Shown here: piece by piece, positions 6,177 to 20,271 of the stretch
How positions within the stretch are numbered: the stretch's first letter is position 1
How the letters are laid out: each line of letters opens with the position of its first letter
Assembly (NCBI GenBank): GCA_031256375.1
Contig: JAIRQX010000074.1
Coordinates: 1-33,592, forward strand
Source: Deferribacteraceae bacterium
Lineage (GTDB): Bacteria; Chrysiogenota; Deferribacteres; Deferribacterales; JAISNW01
Length of the DNA stretch: 33,592 bases
Reading direction: 5' to 3'
Made by a program: the position numbers and the translations under genes
Notes under the pieces: model-generated
The model's input: the letters and a program-made list of their open reading frames with translations, nothing else
What the model was told of the DNA's origin: nothing
Database searches by the model: none

Positions 6177-9100
6177 TTAAAATCCCAAATATAAGCTGTT
6201 TAAATTCAATATAAATTCATTTATCTTTTTTTTGTTATCTTTCTCTTTTTGTGTTTCAAACAGATCAAAGGGTAATTTCCCATCATTACCCGGAACCCAA
6301 CTATTAAAATTATTGTCTCTTTTAATATCTGCTCCTGAATAATTCAATAAATTGGTTACAAAAGAGTTAGAATTATCAAATAGATATCGATAACTAACTG
6401 GATTTTCTTTAGTATAATTTTCATAAGCATCATATCTTAAAAGAATATTTTGAGTAAACTCTGTATCGTTATAATATGGTGATATAACAGTTTTTTGTTC
6501 TGGCTTAAATTCTTTGATATTATTAAGATTTTGCATTTTATAAACATCTTGCGCTAATTGACTATCCGTTGGGTGATTTATTTGAGCATCAAGTACGGAT
6601 CTATCCTCAACTGTTCCTTTAAACCCGCCTAATACAAGCATAGATTTACCATCTTTTAGATCAGTAAATTTATATTTTTCAGGATCAAGTCCCATCTCTC
6701 TTATTTTGTCCGGTTTAAAATCGTCAGGGTTATCAGGAATCAATACTACCGCAGAATGTTTAATTTCTAATTTTTTAGTAATATAAAAATCCACATTTCT
6801 TACTAAATGTATAACTTCAAAATTTACGTCTCCTTCTACATTAGCTAAGTTATTTAAATTATTAAAAAAATTGCTATTCCCATCCAGTAAGACGCTGCTG
6901 CCCGCATTTTTAGCTAGCCACTGATCGCCATTCATAGTGTTTGTGTTTGCATTGCCGTAGTTCTTTAATCTCCATATAGCTTCCGCTGTATCTCCCATAT
7001 TTTCCGCTGTACGATCGTTTGCGCTGTGCCTTTCAAAATTTGTTGTCTCATGATATATTGCATTTATCAGCTTGTTTGGTTTCGCCAAATCAACATTAGC
7101 AAGGTCAATATTTATAAAACGATCAATACCGTCTTTATCTTGATATGCCATACCTATAACATTTCCATTCACATTAGAAATATAAAGTTCACCCATAAAT
7201 CCACCGTTAGCTCCAGCTATATCAGCAAGAGCCTGTAATAATGCTTGTACCTCTTCAGGGGGTAAGTTTGTCGCTCCATTTGCTTGCGCTGTTAACAGTT
7301 TATCCGCTTGTATCTCAGTTTCGCTGTGATCCACATTTACATAATCCAGTACAGCGCCTACTATACTAGTATTGCTATCTGTCGCCGCATTTTTGATTGA
7401 TCTTGATACTATATTGTCCGTCGCTATCGCTTCGGCTATATGTTTGACATTTTCCGGCAGATTTTCAAAATCTTTTTTTATGTTCTCTCTGCCTGATTCT
7501 GTAAATACTCTGTTATCCACCGACAGATTCATGTCCAGCGCGCCGGTTATCTGATCTTTTGTAACAACCTGAACGTTATCTACATTGCGGTTTAATCCTG
7601 ATATATCCGTTCCGTCATTTACTGTGATATTTCCGGAACCTATAGTGGAATAGGTCATCCCCTCTTTTTCGCTGCCAATACCGGTCAATCCTAATGTTGT
7701 GTTGCCGCCGCCATTATTAACATTGGAGCTTAAAGAAACGTTAAATCCGCTTGAGTTTGAACTATTCGTATTCTCAAGGTCTGTCCATGTCAGTTTATTT
7801 ACATTAATCGTCAGATTACCGCGGTCAACCCCGTCTTCATCTATATTTGCTATAATAGAACCTGTTAAATGAAGGTTGTTTGCGTTCAGCGACACAGATT
7901 CCGTTCCTATCAAAGAGCTTACGCTGTTTGACCAAAGACCGTCCATGCTGTTGCTTGAACTGCCAAAACTGCCGCTGATATCTCCGCCTTTACCAGCGCC
8001 CACACCCCAGTTGCTGCCTGAACCGGATGAATTCACCACATCTTGCAGCGTTACAAGGTTGATATTACCCGTCACTCCCGTAGCGTCTATATGTTTTGCT
8101 AAAGCGTTATAACCTTCAGCGTTTATATCTCCGTTGACGTTATAATATATGGTACCGTTCTGGGCTGAAGTACCCGCATTTGTGTAATAAACAGATTCTG
8201 ACCCGCTTTCTGATTTGCTGCCGGAGGCGTTTACGTTTGCTGAGCCGGAAGTTTTTGCGCTTACGCTGTAGCTCTCCTGACTGTATTCCATTTCGCTTGT
8301 AAACGTACTTTTTCCGGCTAAGAAATCAAGGCTGTTTACATTGTAACTGATATCGCCGAATTCGGAATTTACCCATGAACCCCGCTGAACCATACTGTTG
8401 CCGGTAAATGTGATGTCGCCTCCGGCATTTATAGAAGAACCTACGCTTACGCTTGAGCTTTCATTAATTGTTGCGCTTTCGGTATCGTATCTCATACCCG
8501 CTCCGGCATACATACCGGTACCATACGAAGTTGAAGCGGCTGCGGCTGTACCTGCGATTGCAGCCGCCGCATTTAATGTGGCGGTGGTAAGATTGACCCA
8601 CGCCGCCGCAAGATTTGCCTCCGCATCGTTCACAGCCTGCTGTGACGCCTCTCCATTCTTCATTTTGCGTTCCATCTCGTCCAGATCATTTTGCGCTTTC
8701 TCTACCGCTTTTTCAGCCTCATACAAATCATTAACCGCGTACGCCGCATCAACATAAGCGTTGCCTACCGATGCTGAAACATATATATCCGTCTGTTCAT
8801 GTTTGCTCTTTGTGTAGGTTGTATCGTGCGCGTCAAGAACACTCATCTTATCAAACTCAAAAAATGCGTTCCCAAACGCATTTATATCTGAACCAATTAT
8901 ATTTATATCGCCGTTTGCCATAACTGTTAAATTACCGCCTGCGTTCAGCGTTGATTTAACAACTGTTTCCGTTGTAACGCCCGTTTCATCAAGGCTACGT
9001 TCACCAACCTTTGCCGATACGGAACAACCGCCGCGCTCGCAACTGAAATTAATATCGTCAATGCCACTCAGCATAGTCGTCTGCTCATACATTTCATAAT

Positions 9101-11426
9101 GGTACGATTCATCATAAGCGTTTTCGAGGTAAAAGTTACCTCCGGTTTCTGATTTTATAAGTTCACCCTCTTCATCAAAGGTATAACCTGCAAAAATACC
9201 CATATCACCGCCCGATTTTACATTTGAGCCGACTATTTTTGTATCTTTGCCGCTTATCAGCGTCAGAGCATCTTCCGCTACAAAGTTACCGCCCTGATAA
9301 GTCAACTCTCTGTTCACTACCACGCTTGTTGATGACTGTAACCCGCCCATAGAACTTGAATCCGTTCTGGAGTACGAATACTCTTCATCAACAGCGCCCA
9401 TAACGGTAATATTGCCGTCCGCCTGAGCATACGCAAAACCATCTGTTTTCAGGTCGGCGCTTATTGCGGTAATATCATTCCCCGCAAGCAGTACAAGAGC
9501 TTCAGCGCCATATATAGACGAACCAACGTTTTTTACACTCAGAGTTTCCGACACAGTGGCCGAACTGCTGCCAATGCCATCCGTGCTTTCACTTGAAGCA
9601 GTATGAGTTGTGTTTACGCCGGTATATATGTTTATATCGTTTAGCGCCTGAAGCTGAACAACACCGTCTCCCTTTATGAAGCTTCCCGTTATATTTATGT
9701 CATTATCAGCGCTCAGAAGCATATTTCCGCCTGCGTTTATCTCCGAACCGTAAAAAGTTTCTATTGTTGTCGTTTCAGTCTTTTGTGCGCCGCCGCCATA
9801 ACCGTTACCGGAAGCGCTTCTGGTAGTTGAGCTATACGTTGTCGTTACTCCGCCTATAACAAGGTCTTCCCCTGCCTTTAACTGCATGGAGCCATCTGAA
9901 GACACTTTAGAACCTATTATCGCTAAGTCTTTCTCTGTGCTTATCAGCATTGAACCGCCGCTTGTTATAGACGCCATATTGCCAAGGTCGCTTCTGACCT
10001 CCCCTCCGAGAGAAAGTCCGCTCACAAGCGTCTGGGATACAAGTTCACCCGCGTCAAGCCACATATTGCCTTTGGATGAGATTGCCCCGCCGGTGTTAAT
10101 TAATGCGTCTGTAACATCTACAAACATGGTACCGCCAGATGAGATTGAAGCCTGACTTGACATATCAAAGCTGGTTATGCTCATACTCTGCGCTTCAATA
10201 TACATATTCTGCGCCGCAGCTATATTACCGGAGTTAGATACATTACCGGCATATATTTCCATATTTCCTCCGGACAGTATCTGGGAACCTGTACCGTCTT
10301 TCTCTATCATCGCCAACGTCTCAGGGCAAAGATACAGGGTAGGTACATATACGTCCTCGCCGTTAATATTCTTTGTAACATACCATATAATATCGCTCTC
10401 AAGTTTTGCAAGCTGATCCGCAGTGGGTTCCGTTCCCATAGATAAACCGAGCTTATCGCCTTGTTTAGACGCATTATTGTACAATATCTGCATCTGTTCC
10501 GCGCCGGAGGTTGCATCGGATATATACGGACGGTTTGTCCGCATTATTATATCGTTCATTATAAGCTGTGTCTCAAAATATGCGTCACCAAGCGATTTTT
10601 TATTATCACTGTTATCAAAACCCGTCAGGTTAAAGAAATATTCAGATCCAAAAAATAATGAAAGGTCAACAAACATAAGATCTGTCTCAAACATATAACT
10701 GCTGTCAGGTTTATTGTAGCCGTACATTCTTGATATATCATCCGGATCAAAACCCCATGTGCCGTCTTTATTTACTTTTATATCAACAATATTGCCAATA
10801 TTTGCGTGAACATTGTCTTTTATACTCCCAATGCTGATACTGTCAGCGTTTACATTTATATTTAATGAATCTGTGGTGATAGAATACGCCTTCAATCCCC
10901 CGCCAATAACCCCTTCAGTAGAAATACTTTTATTTTTAGCGGATACTTTATCAAAAGTTGGTTTACCAAAAAGTTTGGCAACGTCAATATTTTTGTTTGT
11001 CTCATCCACCATCAGCTCTTTTGAGGCTATAATATCCAAACTGCCTATACTGCTGATAACTGCCGCGGTATTTCCGTACAGGGTAGCGCTGTATGAACCT
11101 TCGGCATACGTATCACCTTTCCAGCCGCAGCCTATGCAACTTTGTTTGTTGCTCTTCCTGTGCATCCTTATCCCTAAGCCGTCCACAGTGAACGATTCAC
11201 GGATATTCTTTAATGAGTTGCTCTTCAGAACCATTGTCCCGCCGGACATTATCTTGCTTGAATTATTTACTAAATTTTCCGCATTTACATCCATATTACC
11301 CTGAGAAAGAATAACTCCGGTGGTCTCATTTGTCAGGGTAGATTCAACTTTCATAAGATATATCAGTCTCCAGTCACCGTTGCTGCTGTTACCTGCGGTA
11401 TATGTATCCGTAGTATAATGAACCAC
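6177..11426 (-). CDS. FhaB/CdiA-type filamentous haemagglutinin, main body separated from its TPS domain by a frameshift
   Basis: This 1749-codon frame carries the body of a large two-partner-secretion exoprotein. Residues about 350-880 and 980-1280 hold haemagglutinin repeats with the recurring pattern AGGN(L/M)...DI-I-GS (for example NAGGNMLLSADNDINITGS). A short helical, alanine-rich insert lies near residues 900-965. The C-terminal 350 residues are different: a HETTNFERH segment near 1460, then a domain with KHSAVVLIP near 1555 and NSNSFV near 1683, reminiscent of papain-like (NlpC/LRAT-type) folds with Ser where the Cys would be. No signal peptide or TPS domain is in this frame; the first start is GTG at 11426 just behind a TAG, with an alternative ATG at 11354. 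The missing N-terminus lies in the overlapping 11389-11973 frame, so the gene is probably broken. No VENN motif was seen. Confidence 0.85.
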   Translation of the reverse strand: MVHYTTDTYTAGNSSNGDWRLIYLMKVESTLTNETTGVILSQGNMDVNAENLVNNSSKIMSGGTMVLKSNSLKNIRESFTVDGLGIRMHRKSNKQSCIGCGWKGDTYAEGSYSATLYGNTAAVISSIGSLDIIASKELMVDETNKNIDVAKLFGKPTFDKVSAKNKSISTEGVIGGGLKAYSITTDSLNINVNADSISIGSIKDNVHANIGNIVDIKVNKDGTWGFDPDDISRMYGYNKPDSSYMFETDLMFVDLSLFFGSEYFFNLTGFDNSDNKKSLGDAYFETQLIMNDIIMRTNRPYISDATSGAEQMQILYNNASKQGDKLGLSMGTEPTADQLAKLESDIIWYVTKNINGEDVYVPTLYLCPETLAMIEKDGTGSQILSGGNMEIYAGNVSNSGNIAAAQNMYIEAQSMSITSFDMSSQASISSGGTMFVDVTDALINTGGAISSKGNMWLDAGELVSQTLVSGLSLGGEVRSDLGNMASITSGGSMLISTEKDLAIIGSKVSSDGSMQLKAGEDLVIGGVTTTYSSTTRSASGNGYGGGAQKTETTTIETFYGSEINAGGNMLLSADNDINITGSFIKGDGVVQLQALNDINIYTGVNTTHTASSESTDGIGSSSATVSETLSVKNVGSSIYGAEALVLLAGNDITAISADLKTDGFAYAQADGNITVMGAVDEEYSYSRTDSSSMGGLQSSTSVVVNRELTYQGGNFVAEDALTLISGKDTKIVGSNVKSGGDMGIFAGYTFDEEGELIKSETGGNFYLENAYDESYHYEMYEQTTMLSGIDDINFSCERGGCSVSAKVGERSLDETGVTTETVVKSTLNAGGNLTVMANGDINIIGSDINAFGNAFFEFDKMSVLDAHDTTYTKSKHEQTDIYVSASVGNAYVDAAYAVNDLYEAEKAVEKAQNDLDEMERKMKNGEASQQAVNDAEANLAAAWVNLTTATLNAAAAIAGTAAAASTSYGTGMYAGAGMRYDTESATINESSSVSVGSSINAGGDITFTGNSMVQRGSWVNSEFGDISYNVNSLDFLAGKSTFTSEMEYSQESYSVSAKTSGSANVNASGSKSESGSESVYYTNAGTSAQNGTIYYNVNGDINAEGYNALAKHIDATGVTGNINLVTLQDVVNSSGSGSNWGVGAGKGGDISGSFGSSSNSMDGLWSNSVSSLIGTESVSLNANNLHLTGSIIANIDEDGVDRGNLTINVNKLTWTDLENTNSSNSSGFNVSLSSNVNNGGGNTTLGLTGIGSEKEGMTYSTIGSGNITVNDGTDISGLNRNVDNVQVVTKDQITGALDMNLSVDNRVFTESGRENIKKDFENLPENVKHIAEAIATDNIVSRSIKNAATDSNTSIVGAVLDYVNVDHSETEIQADKLLTAQANGATNLPPEEVQALLQALADIAGANGGFMGELYISNVNGNVIGMAYQDKDGIDRFINIDLANVDLAKPNKLINAIYHETTNFERHSANDRTAENMGDTAEAIWRLKNYGNANTNTMNGDQWLAKNAGSSVLLDGNSNFFNNLNNLANVEGDVNFEVIHLVRNVDFYITKKLEIKHSAVVLIPDNPDDFKPDKIREMGLDPEKYKFTDLKDGKSMLVLGGFKGTVEDRSVLDAQINHPTDSQLAQDVYKMQNLNNIKEFKPEQKTVISPYYNDTEFTQNILLRYDAYENYTKENPVSYRYLFDNSNSFVTNLLNYSGADIKRDNNFNSWVPGNDGKLPFDLFETQKEKDNKKKINEFILNLNSLYLGF

Positions 11427-11973
11427 CTCGTATCTCTATATCCCCGTAACTGGATATGGAAAATGTGTTGAAATCAGGGTTGGAACGACCGGTAATTAAT
11501 GTTGTCCTATTGGAATTTATAAACCCGCAGCCCTCGCACGTTATACCGTTGGGGTTCGCTATTATAACCGCCGCGCCTTTACCTGCCACCTCCGTAAAAC
11601 CCGACATATTTGTGCGGTTGGTTGAAGTAACTTCATTCATTATTACTTCCGCGCTGTTGTTTTTTACATTCGGATTTGCCGCAATCCTTCCGCCGAGGGT
11701 TGTCAACTCTCCGTCATTTTTTGAGTTATTCAGGATAAGACCAAGGGCGTCAACGTTATAATCTCTATACTTATTATGAGAAACGCCCCCTGATGAAGGA
11801 GGCGCTATATTCACCACAGGAACTCCGTTAGGAGCGACCGTTATCTTAGTATTGGTTGTACCGTCAGCGGAAAGGGGCGCTCCGGCGTAAACCAGCATGG
11901 GATAAAACAAAAGAGACCAAAATACTGTAAGGATATAAAAAGATTGGGACAGTAACTGCAGTAAACGTTTCAT
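11389..11973 (-). CDS. TPS secretion-domain fragment of the FhaB/CdiA-type gene (frameshifted N-terminus)
   Basis: This 194-residue frame is the N-terminus of the haemagglutinin. It has a long signal peptide (about residues 1-30, ending MLVYAGA) followed by a TPS (haemagglutination-activity) domain with the diagnostic NPNGI motif, a Cys-x2-Cys pair (ITCEGCGF) and FINSNRTTLITG. It ends abruptly (SLYYGYIYRR) at a TAA, short of the usual length of about 250 residues. The main body continues in another frame overlapping by 38 bases. An AGGAG lies seven bases before the ATG at 11973, and a good promoter is upstream. Alone it could at most give a secreted TPS stub. No homopolymer tract lies at the junction, so a deletion scar or sequencing error is more likely than slipped-strand phase variation. 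Confidence 0.85.
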   Translation of the reverse strand: MKRLLQLLSQSFYILTVFWSLLFYPMLVYAGAPLSADGTTNTKITVAPNGVPVVNIAPPSSGGVSHNKYRDYNVDALGLILNNSKNDGELTTLGGRIAANPNVKNNSAEVIMNEVTSTNRTNMSGFTEVAGKGAAVIIANPNGITCEGCGFINSNRTTLITGRSNPDFNTFSISSYGDIEIRGGSLYYGYIYRR

Positions 11974-16784: not shown

Positions 16785-16902
16785 ATAGCAGTTCCACCCG
16801 TCTTTGCGAGGAACATCGTGACGAAGCAATCCATGAATAAACAATCGTTATTGCCGCGCCAAAGGTGAGGTAATAACGATCAATGTAAAGTGGAACAGCT
16901 AT
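16785..16902 (+). repeat. MITE-like hairpin element, copy A (118 bp)
   Basis: Ends are inverted repeats (ATAGCAGTTCCAC and GTGGAACAGCTAT, 12 of 13 matching). Inside are the motif GTCTTTGCGAGGAAC-GTGACGAAGCAATCC and a hairpin with arms 16844-16855 and 16869-16880. It has the same length and layout as the copy at 18930-19047. It lies just after the sulfatase-like gene and may also stop its transcription. It contains no ORF. Confidence 0.8.
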
Positions 16903-16958: not shown

Positions 16959-18188
16959 TTATTTTCTCTTGAAACTATTTACAATCTTTGCAGGAGTGAT
17001 CGTAGGAAATGTATCTGAATAATCTATCACATAATTTACATATTGTGCAGGATAAACAATCTTTTTCCCAATGTCAAAATCGGTGAGAGCCTCCTTTTTT
17101 ATCCATCCCTGATTACTTTCGAGGGCGTATTTTTCGCAATATTTTTCAAACAGTTTTATAGGGTCACAGTCCATAGCGTGCCCTGACGACTTAATTATCT
17201 CACCGTCCGTATCTTTTTCAGAAAATATATAATGAACGCAGTCTATTTTGTTCTTTTTATAAAGTTTTTCCAGCGCGATTTTACTCTTTACGTCAACCAG
17301 CTTATCGTCAGCGCCGTGAAACATTATAATTTTCCCTTTAAAATGCTGTTTATAAGTATTAATGTGCGCTTTGTCGCAGAGCGTACGGATTTTTAACATA
17401 TCATCGGTAACATAATATTTGCTGTTTTTATCAGATTCATAGTAAAATCCTTTGAACTTACCCAGCATAACACCACTAATTTGGGTCCGTTGATATGTAT
17501 TACTGTCCGGTCTCATTGACGCTCTTTCAGGGAATGCGTATCCCGATACGTCCGCTACAAGGCTGAACGTATTGGGCGCAAATTTAGAACAAAGCTGCGC
17601 CAGTTGACCTCCGAAACTAACCCCGTAAGCAAATATCCTTTTTGCGTTCAATCTCTTCCCTTTTGATTTATACATATCCAGAACATATTTTACAGCACAC
17701 AGGCAATCTATTGTCTGAATATATCCGTAGTCAAAATAATCCCTTATTTGCTCTTTGTTTACATCGGAAACCTCATGCACAAATATCTCACTTGCTAAAT
17801 CTTGTCCTTTTAAATATCGCAGCATATCAAAGGGATTATTGGAATTACGGGATTTATAATCATCCTTTTGTTCTTCCGTCAATTTATTGAATAATTTATC
17901 GACCATATCGTTTTTTATTCTAAAAACTGCTGATTTATTAAACGATCTTGAACCAAAATAATTCACCCCTAAAGTGACAACATTGTAGCGGTTACTCCAC
18001 CTCTCGCGCATTTGAACAAGCGAAGGGCTAGATGCAAGTCCGCCCAACCCCTCCGAAATAAGAAACAGCCCCGTGTTTTCATTAATGGTGTCAGGCTCTT
18101 TTACATAAATATCAAAACTTCTCTCAAAATCATCTTCCTGAAATTCTGTTTTATGACCTTTAAGCCAAAAGATTTGTTCCGAATTCAT
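16959..18188 (-). CDS. Alpha/beta hydrolase resembling DUF2920
   Basis: This 409-residue cytoplasmic-looking protein has no signal peptide. It has the nucleophile elbow YGVSFGGQ (S191), an acid loop FHGADDKLVDV (D294/D295) and SSGHAMDCDP (H337), giving a complete Ser-Asp-His set. The N-terminal layout (ISEGLGG..., then a long insert before the elbow) resembles the DUF2920 family, best known from Campylobacter flagellar-glycosylation regions. That family link is from memory and moderate. The gene starts seven bases after the stop of the nucleotidyltransferase-like gene, so the two form an operon. A role in making or trimming an activated sugar or acyl group is possible but unproven. The last 60 residues beyond the catalytic His are of unknown role. 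Confidence 0.75.
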   Translation of the reverse strand: MNSEQIFWLKGHKTEFQEDDFERSFDIYVKEPDTINENTGLFLISEGLGGLASSPSLVQMRERWSNRYNVVTLGVNYFGSRSFNKSAVFRIKNDMVDKLFNKLTEEQKDDYKSRNSNNPFDMLRYLKGQDLASEIFVHEVSDVNKEQIRDYFDYGYIQTIDCLCAVKYVLDMYKSKGKRLNAKRIFAYGVSFGGQLAQLCSKFAPNTFSLVADVSGYAFPERASMRPDSNTYQRTQISGVMLGKFKGFYYESDKNSKYYVTDDMLKIRTLCDKAHINTYKQHFKGKIIMFHGADDKLVDVKSKIALEKLYKKNKIDCVHYIFSEKDTDGEIIKSSGHAMDCDPIKLFEKYCEKYALESNQGWIKKEALTDFDIGKKIVYPAQYVNYVIDYSDTFPTITPAKIVNSFKRK

Positions 18189-18195
18189 ACTGCCC

Positions 18196-18879
18196 TCAAA
18201 AAAAATTTTCTGAAATATATTTATATGTCACTTCAGGCACCAGTTCTTTTATCTTGTTCCGATCCCTTGATTTAATAAGCTCCCTAACATTAGTAGCGCT
18301 GATAAACCCTCCGTCATGCCGTACCCGTTCAATCTCAACAAATTTTATGCCATAAACCGGCAGCAAATTGCGCATAGCTTCATTATACTGTTTTGTTACT
18401 GTGCAGAAAGGTTCTGAGCCGGCAAAACGCACAGATATACCTAGCGCAGGCGCTATATGACTGCCAAACAGGTTCAGATCCACAGATATATCAGAAGAGC
18501 TGTCCTTTTTATTGTGAACCTCCTCCTTTGTGAAATAACCCGGGAATGTTAGGGATGATATAATAAATTTGCCGCCCGGCAACACTTTGACATTTTTCAG
18601 GTCATGAACCCCGTTACAAACCAGCGCATATCTTTCCTTAAAAGGGAAAAACGATTTATCCTCCTCCAATATAAACAGATATAAAAAGTCTACCCTTTGC
18701 GAAGCCTGCTCTATTAAATACCTGTGACCGTTGGTAAACGGATTGCAGTTCATAACAACCGCGCCGCAAACCCTGTAAGAGTGGGAGATTGTCTTTATAT
18801 CATGAAGCCCTTTAAGATATTCATTAAAAGCCATGTTAGTTTCGGCATCAAAAAAGTCACAATATACAAATGGTTGCAT
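18196..18879 (-). CDS. Stand-alone nucleotidyltransferase resembling the C-terminal half of citrate lyase ligase
   Basis: This 227-residue protein has the nucleotidylyltransferase signature near residues 38-58 (GAVVMNCNPFTNGHRYLIEQA region, T/HxGH at 49-52) and the second signature ISATNVRELI near 193-202, corresponding to the ISSTxxR motif. Both fit the cytidylyltransferase fold used by CitC to activate the citrate lyase acyl carrier by acetylation. CitC normally has about 340 residues with an N-terminal acetyltransferase half, absent here, and no citrate lyase subunit genes are nearby. It more likely adenylylates or cytidylylates a different small molecule together with the downstream DUF2920-like hydrolase. 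The start at 18879 is the only good ATG before the domain; its ribosome site is weak. Confidence 0.78.
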   Translation of the reverse strand: MQPFVYCDFFDAETNMAFNEYLKGLHDIKTISHSYRVCGAVVMNCNPFTNGHRYLIEQASQRVDFLYLFILEEDKSFFPFKERYALVCNGVHDLKNVKVLPGGKFIISSLTFPGYFTKEEVHNKKDSSSDISVDLNLFGSHIAPALGISVRFAGSEPFCTVTKQYNEAMRNLLPVYGIKFVEIERVRHDGGFISATNVRELIKSRDRNKIKELVPEVTYKYISENFF

Positions 18880-18929: not shown

Positions 18930-19047
18930 ATAGTAGTTCCACTTGTCTTTGCGAGGAACAAAGTGACGAAGCAATCCATGAATAAACAATCTGTATTGCC
19001 GCGCCTTCGGCGCGGCAATACAGGTCAATGTAAAGTGGAACAGCTAT
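18930..19047 (+). repeat. MITE-like hairpin element, copy B (118 bp)
   Basis: Ends are inverted repeats (ATAGTAGTTCCACTT and AAGTGGAACAGCTAT, 13 of 15 matching). It shares with copy A the GTCTTTGCGAGGAAC...GACGAAGCAATCCATG-AATAAACAAT core. The central hairpin is a perfect 15-bp stem (18991-19005/19009-19023), which can be read as a C(TTCG)G tetraloop. Stem positions differ from copy A on both arms in a compensatory way. Confidence 0.82.
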
Positions 19048-19322: not shown

Positions 19323-19349
19323 TAAAGAAAAATATAATTCTGCCGATAA
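19323..19349 (+). promoter_or_regulatory. Sigma-28 (FliA) flagellar promoter
   Basis: TAAA (19323-19326), exactly 15 bases, then GCCGATAA (19342-19349). This is a full match to the FliA consensus TAAA-N15-GCCGATAA. The start codon of the flagellin-like gene is 34 bases past the -10, with GGAAGGA about eight bases before it. A TATAAT inside the spacer has no good -35 at proper distance. Confidence 0.85.
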
Positions 19350-19383
19350 GTATTGTAGTTTATAAACATGGAAGGACTCTTAT

Positions 19384-20271
19384 ATGAACATTAATTTCGG
19401 CAAACTGCATTCCATAGCGGATATGGGCTTAAATACCGTGCATTCCGCAAATACCGCTTTGTTTAAAAACCTTATCACACCGGATAACATTAAGAATAAA
19501 TCATTAAACATGGATAAAATTGAATTTTCAACAAAAATTGCCGCCGAACTCAATAGAATGGTTGATGAAAACAGGCCTGTGAGTAAAGAAGATGAAATAA
19601 TGACCGAAAATGAAGCTTCAACGCCTAATTCCACCTTCCGCGCTACCGGAAAACTAGCCGGAAAGCTATATGTTGCCAGAAGCGGGATAGAGAAGGTAAT
19701 GGATAACATAATGCTCATTCGCGGGTTTGTTGAAAGGTTAAACGAAAAGGACAATGCGTTTACAGAGAACGACCGTAAAGAGATTCAAAAGGAAATAGAT
19801 AGTCTGAAAAATAAAATCAATAAAATTTCGGAAACTGTAACGAAAGAGCTCGGTCCGGATTTTGATATGGGATGCCGTACTTTGGGAGTTGAAAATTTAA
19901 GCGTAATTACAAAAGATTTAGCGTATGAAGCGCTGGACACGCTCACGCTAGCCATGAGAAAAGCCAAAGACATAGAGATGATGATAAACAAAAAAATTGA
20001 GGAGCTGGAAAAGAGCCAGTATAAAAATAGGAAAAACAACGTATCAGCGGATATGAGCGATCTGGAGCGTCAGCGGCAGATTGCGGAAAAAATCCAGAAT
20101 GCCCTTAACGCCAATACTGATATAAACAATATAAATATGTCATTGAATGAGTTAATCCAGACATCTGCAACGGATCAGACAGCAGACGGCAAAAATACTG
20201 ACGCGTCTAAATCCTTAATTGATAGTATGTTTGACAAAGACGCCGCTCAAAAACCGGAAGAAGAGCAGTAA
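19384..20271 (+). CDS. Flagellin-like coiled-coil protein, late flagellar gene
   Basis: This 295-residue, largely helical protein has no signal peptide. The stretch around residues 98-155 (SGIEKVMDNIMLIRGFVERL, then EIQKEIDSLKNKINKISETV) resembles the flagellin D1 helix region, where an IR-L-....EI--EI--L---I--I pattern is typical. It lacks the conserved flagellin termini, so it is not an ordinary filament subunit. The C-terminal 70 residues are polar and low-complexity, ending DAAQKPEEEQ. The perfect sigma-28 promoter directly upstream places it in the late flagellar regulon. It could be an accessory filament, cap, sheath or chaperone-like protein. Family assignment is inference; the promoter link is strong. 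It stands alone, with no flagellar neighbours in the window. Confidence 0.72.
   Translation: MNINFGKLHSIADMGLNTVHSANTALFKNLITPDNIKNKSLNMDKIEFSTKIAAELNRMVDENRPVSKEDEIMTENEASTPNSTFRATGKLAGKLYVARSGIEKVMDNIMLIRGFVERLNEKDNAFTENDRKEIQKEIDSLKNKINKISETVTKELGPDFDMGCRTLGVENLSVITKDLAYEALDTLTLAMRKAKDIEMMINKKIEELEKSQYKNRKNNVSADMSDLERQRQIAEKIQNALNANTDINNINMSLNELIQTSATDQTADGKNTDASKSLIDSMFDKDAAQKPEEEQ

Follow-up and report, generated by a model that had tools for sequence, protein, structure and literature searches.

Why does a gene that stands alone, away from flagellar genes, lie behind an exact match to the promoter consensus of the flagellar sigma factor FliA (sigma-28), and what might its product do, if it has a flagellin-like helical pattern without flagellin termini? 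We followed up this locus in a 33,592-nt window (the whole stretch of DNA that was analysed, contig C111 of a draft genome), for which a sequence-only reading had suggested an undescribed late flagellar component.

The promoter and start site

The elements upstream of the gene and the reading frame itself are as follows (window positions).

19323..19349, + strand: FliA/sigma-28-type promoter, TAAA-N15-GCCGATAA, with the -35 at 19323-19326 and the -10 at 19342-19349 (exact match, genome enrichment)
19370..19376, + strand: GGAAGGA, probable ribosome-binding site, 7 nt 5' of the ATG (sequence)
19384..20271, + strand: coding sequence, with its stop codon, of the 295-aa D1-only flagellin-like protein (ORF, translation, flagellin-core profile 43.6 bits)

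The exact FliA consensus that had been placed 34 bp 5' of the gene was confirmed, as the site (TAAAGAAAAATATAATTCTGCCGATAA, 19323-19349, + strand) is the single TAAA-N13..17-GCCGATAA match in the window, with exactly 34 bases between its end and the ATG at 19384. Shuffles led to an expectation of 0.05 TAAA-N15-GCCGATAA sites per window on average, and the pattern was seen in 4 of 100 shuffled windows. Across the 1.95-Mb assembly, TAAA-N14..16-GCCGATAA occurred 11 times against once for the backward control, and the stricter TAAAG-N13..15-GCCGATAA seven times against none. Among the 11 genomic sites, one lies 55 bp 5' of the start of the main flagellin (contig C6), where it is a 12/12 site as in the D1-only gene, one lies 184 bp 5' of motA, one 33 bp 5' of an OmpA-like gene, and one is that of the D1-only gene; two are near a contig end with TAAAGTTT, and the remainder are intragenic or have no nearby downstream gene. 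Of the flagellins of this genome that were examined, two others carry no such start-proximal 12/12 site. FliA itself is encoded, with a score above the curated cut-off, so that the promoter and the sigma factor expected for a FliA (sigma-28) regulon member occur in the same genome. Judged from these counts, the promoter is probably real, although a perfect consensus match does not prove that the site is used. A 43-aa ORF downstream is unlikely to belong to the same unit, with its own sigma-70-like site and no match in four family genomes.

Flagellin D1 ancestry and domain layout

Within the reading frame we distinguish the following segments.

19384..19632, + strand: aa 1-83, N-terminal segment in which Pfam detects neither D0 nor another domain, modelled with low confidence (Pfam, model)
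19513..19530, + strand: DKIEFS, a D-x-V/I-x-L/I/F-S motif at aa 44-49, resembling the start of the FlgM domain (motif scan)
19633..19851, + strand: aa 84-156, helical hairpin resembling nD1 (flagellin core positions 75-130 matched at 31.6 bits; helices 82-121, 128-156; block pLDDT 75-92 for aa 91-160)
19867..20088, + strand: aa 162-235, segment resembling cD1 (flagellin core positions 182-256 matched at 13.7 bits; flagellin D1 matched in structure)
20089..20268, + strand: C-terminal tail, aa 236-295, no recognisable cD0 (no family match; pLDDT mostly <50)

The sequence-only reading was also correct in describing a D1-like pattern without flagellin termini. In Pfam, Flagellin_N matched the protein only partially and below cut-off (aa 91-152, profile positions 67-126 of 139), and Flagellin_C did not match. 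A fused-core profile, built from nine flagellins after excision of their outer domain, gave 43.6 bits for the 295-aa protein and 43.2 bits for a relative from Termitispirillum (described below), as against 11.7 bits for the best of ~5,800 shuffled or locally shuffled decoys. The profile matched nD1 (aa 95-152) and cD1 (aa 162-235) in flagellin order, separated by a linker of ~10 residues where flagellins have their outer domain. D0 is not recognisable at either end, since the profile match covers neither D0 and the terminal fragments are without Pfam matches; a decayed D0 remnant may be present at the ends of both proteins. A hook/rod-type N terminus, considered from sequence, found no support in Pfam on the terminal fragments. 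When a profile of the two proteins was compared with all PDB sequences, the sole significant chain was the Geovibrio thiophilus flagellin (E 1.6e-10), matched in both nD1 and cD1, and each protein searched singly led to the same chain. Geovibrio belongs to the same phylum.

Structure prediction against flagellin, which had been proposed as a check, supported the relationship to flagellin through the relative and only ambiguously through the protein itself. The AlphaFold2 model of the 295-aa protein, with a two-row alignment as input, contains a three-helix core (aa 82-121, 128-156, and from 177 on); block pLDDT is 75-92 between aa 91 and 210 and low elsewhere. VIA-align placed many flagellins at Z ~10 to this model, tied with unrelated helical bundles, so that the model alone proves little, and Foldseek returned no significant match for it. 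With the relative's model, 48 of the 50 best structural rows listed were flagellin entries (Z up to 15.6), and the superposition on the Geovibrio flagellin reached Z 13.9, with an rmsd of 2.4 over 129 residues and 26% identity. On the profile evidence, the 295-aa protein is a real flagellin relative with an nD1 and cD1 core, and the models predict a three-helix flagellin D1 core from which the outer domain has been cut out, with neither D0 half.

A relative in Termitispirillum and the genomic setting

The relative (301 aa, compared with 295 aa) is encoded by Deferribacterales bacterium MS499-41 (G001), named 'Candidatus Termitispirillum reticulitermitis' in a 2026 paper; it lives as an ectosymbiont on protists of the termite gut and belongs to Termitispirillaceae (GTDB JAISNW01), a family known solely from insect guts (PMC12887300). 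The window's genome is from a different genus of the same family. The two proteins are alike in layout, and a 125-aa alignment that spans the nD1-cD1 junction shows 29% identity; a small, long-branched tree pairs them with 0.964 support. Searches with single sequences and with profiles, covering 60 and 147 genomes, yielded this one clear relative; those of the other matches that were inspected proved to be ordinary flagellins or flagellin termini at the edges of contigs, and a 300-aa candidate (G118) was a normal short flagellin. Pattern scans of genome and viral contigs added only the Termitispirillum relative, under its public name, and no phage match was found. The gene is present in two of five family genomes; its absence from the three others is weak evidence, as these are 78-88% complete. 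No sigma-28 site above chance precedes the relative (best 9/12), sigma-70-like sites being found there instead, and because exact TAAAG sites in its genome are few and lie inside frames, we take the missing site as a caution and not as a refutation. The loci of the two members showed no synteny connection. Ectosymbiont members of the family carry 15 to 40 flagellin genes, and the published flagellin tree used only proteins >350 aa (PMC12887300), which leaves proteins of ~295 aa outside it.

The genome encodes FlgK, FlgL, FliD, FliS and FlgM in addition to several flagellins, so the D1-only protein would be an addition to this set and not a replacement for one of these five, and its comparison with the genome's 1326-aa FlgL gave no alignment above chance. 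That FlgL-like protein (L069:4477-8457, G000:C48), encoded directly after flgK, is several times the usual FlgL size, and the FliD of the genome is also large (935-aa open frame).

Several other features of the window were recorded. A strong GC-rich hairpin lies just 5' of the D1-only gene (18991-19023), and a GCGAGG...GACGAAGCAATCCA repeat is found in two copies (18951-18978 and 16806-16833). Divergent from the D1-only gene, a DUF2920 hydrolase-like gene adjoins a citrate-lyase-ligase-like nucleotidyltransferase (16959-18879, - strand). A hemagglutinin-repeat protein (6177-11426, - strand) and a TPS secretion domain (11389-11973, - strand) occupy overlapping frames, possibly representing one two-partner-secretion adhesin split by a frameshift, and are followed by small ORFs without Pfam matches. 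The segment 30415-33460 holds an IS1595-type transposase, a C5-cytosine DNA methyltransferase and a convergent ICEA-like ORF, the latter two possibly forming a restriction-modification pair.

Possible roles of a D1-only flagellin relative

The product had been put forward as possibly undescribed, but a D1-only flagellin-like protein is already known, namely HP1076 of Helicobacter pylori, which has a D1 fold, competes with flagellin for FliS and fails to polymerise, and whose deletion causes no motility defect (PMC7248283); it is also cleaved by the protease CtpA (PMC12749690). HP1076 (PDB 3K1H, 3K1I, 6LEA) and our protein have in common a flagellin-like fold reduced to D1, with neither D0 nor outer domains, a gene outside the standard structural set, and, as predicted for ours, a failure to polymerise. 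HP1076 is shorter (171 aa, against 295 aa for our protein, both ends of which carry long extensions), is RpoN-dependent whereas the D1-only gene has a sigma-28 site, and has been reported only from epsilon-proteobacteria, whereas the present protein occurs in Deferribacterota. The kind of protein is therefore not new, and what differs here is phylum, promoter, size and extensions. In PDB searches with the D1-only proteins, no HP1076 entry was among the sequence matches up to E 10.

Other flagellin relatives offer partial parallels. FlaC of Campylobacter jejuni (PMC4863622) is likewise largely without outer domains and not obviously a filament subunit, but it is secreted and has D0 and D1, whereas in our protein the outer domain is absent and D0 is not recognisable, which sets it apart from the FlaC type. 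FljJ of Caulobacter crescentus is a flagellin paralogue with a regulatory job that is unable to form a filament alone, a likeness to the D1-only protein, yet it shares 49% identity with the other flagellins (PMC7591256) and is exported and glycosylated, whereas the present protein is reduced to D1. The Geovibrio thiophilus flagellin (PDB 9au6), the nearest sequence relative among solved structures, differs in being a filament-forming protein of 793 aa with a large outer domain. HP1076 was the sole D1-only flagellin relative found in the literature searched; a further example from a different phylum, preceded by a flagellin-type promoter, would, if true, suggest that the flagellin packing domain has been reused as a soluble binding module, and would provide a second system for asking what D1-only flagellin relatives do.

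As flagellin termini (D0) are critical for polymerisation (PMC8306008), the D1-only protein should stay soluble and not form a filament, and 'non-structural flagellin relative' fits it better than 'filament component'. The explanation that we favour, and that we give an even chance of being right, is a non-structural protein made under FliA at the same time as flagellin, whose D1 face would dock on partners that normally see flagellin D1, e.g. FliS first, as HP1076 does, and would thereby tune flagellin handling; alternatively, the protein may leave the cell as an export client. FliS binding, known for HP1076, is proposed here by analogy, with FliS encoded in the genome at G000:C62:15052-15390. 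In flagellin, FliS makes contact with the C-terminal D0 as well, and the absence of this region from the D1-only protein counts against FliS docking. Further points against the favoured explanation are the relative without a sigma-28 site, the presence in two of five family genomes, the tie of the protein's own model with helical bundles and its lack of a significant Foldseek match, and the normal motility of H. pylori after HP1076 deletion, which makes the analogue an uncertain guide to function.

How do other explanations compare? D1 mediates lateral packing in the filament, which together with FliA timing would suit a minor flagellar protein with a structural or assembly role (a junction, cap or filament-surface protein), as the sequence-only reading proposed. 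Flagellin-D1 ancestry, the lack of recognisable termini and a FliA-type promoter in a FliA-bearing genome agree with that proposal, but the protein has no D0, the gene is isolated from flagellar genes, its sole clear relative lacks a sigma-28 site, and FlgK, FlgL, FliD and flagellins are all encoded already, so that we regard a structural role as rather improbable. A somewhat better, if still doubtful, candidate is a protein secreted via the flagellar export apparatus that would act outside the cell, on a host, a protist or neighbours, instead of serving motility, in the manner of Campylobacter FlaC, a secreted non-motility flagellin (PMC4863622). FliA timing, the insect-gut habitat of the family (PMC12887300) and an N terminus that is not Sec-like and hydrophobic but acidic-poor and S/N/T-rich would all fit such a protein; FlaC, however, retains both D0 and D1, whereas no D0 can be recognised in the D1-only protein, and the N-terminal composition is weak evidence, matched by 5% of comparison genes for the D1-only protein and by <1% for the relative.

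That the gene is a degenerate flagellin copy becoming a pseudogene, with a promoter left over from its parent, would accord with long tree branches and with the expanded flagellin sets (15 and 40 copies) of related ectosymbionts (PMC12887300). We consider this quite improbable, because the ORF is intact with a start site and ribosome-binding site, and because a relative of similar length and layout in another genus, with the same nD1-cD1 fusion, points to retention. A chance sigma-28 match 5' of a coiled-coil protein merely resembling flagellin is barely credible: the promoter pattern does turn up in shuffled windows, and flagellins fit the protein's own model no better than other helical bundles do, but the two-segment, in-order profile match lies far above decoys, the sole significant PDB match is a flagellin of the same phylum, and the relative's model is clearly flagellin-like.

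The N-terminal extension offers a lead of its own. A D-x-V/I-x-L/I/F/M-S motif, chosen after being seen, was present between aa 10 and 80 in 10 of the 285 distinct genes examined. Seven of these ten encode FlgM (three), the D1-only protein, the relative, or members of a further uncharacterised FliA-linked family (two); the FlgM Pfam domain begins at this motif. The FlgM profile gave the D1-only protein 6.4 bits, a value reached by 3 of 1745 shuffles and a rough score, as the profile held a few mis-picked frames. An FlgM fusion or FlgM domain (PF04316) was rejected, since only the first motif resembles FlgM and the genome has a separate true FlgM; the similarity is best treated as a lead from sequence. 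Improbable is an extended version in which a FliA-timed D1 mimic would occupy FliS or other flagellin-binding partners, while its N-terminal D-x-V-x-L-S segment, common to FlgM and the other FliA-linked family, would be a common targeting or sigma-28-contact module marking several late flagellar proteins in Deferribacterota.

The two members of that other FliA-linked family, an uncharacterised one in Deferribacterales, are proteins of 331 and 291 aa (L110:1608-2603 in G002 and L085:1561-2436 in G021); they are encoded directly 3' of exact sigma-28 sites, are mutual homologues (33% over 98 aa), carry an FlgM-like DxVxxS motif and have no Pfam family match. An OmpA-family protein (L039:2145-2981, G000:C84) is also encoded 3' of a sigma-28 site, and its N-terminal half is similar to that of a protein from another family of the order (L082:1567-2154, G005), which likewise lies 3' of a sigma-28 site.
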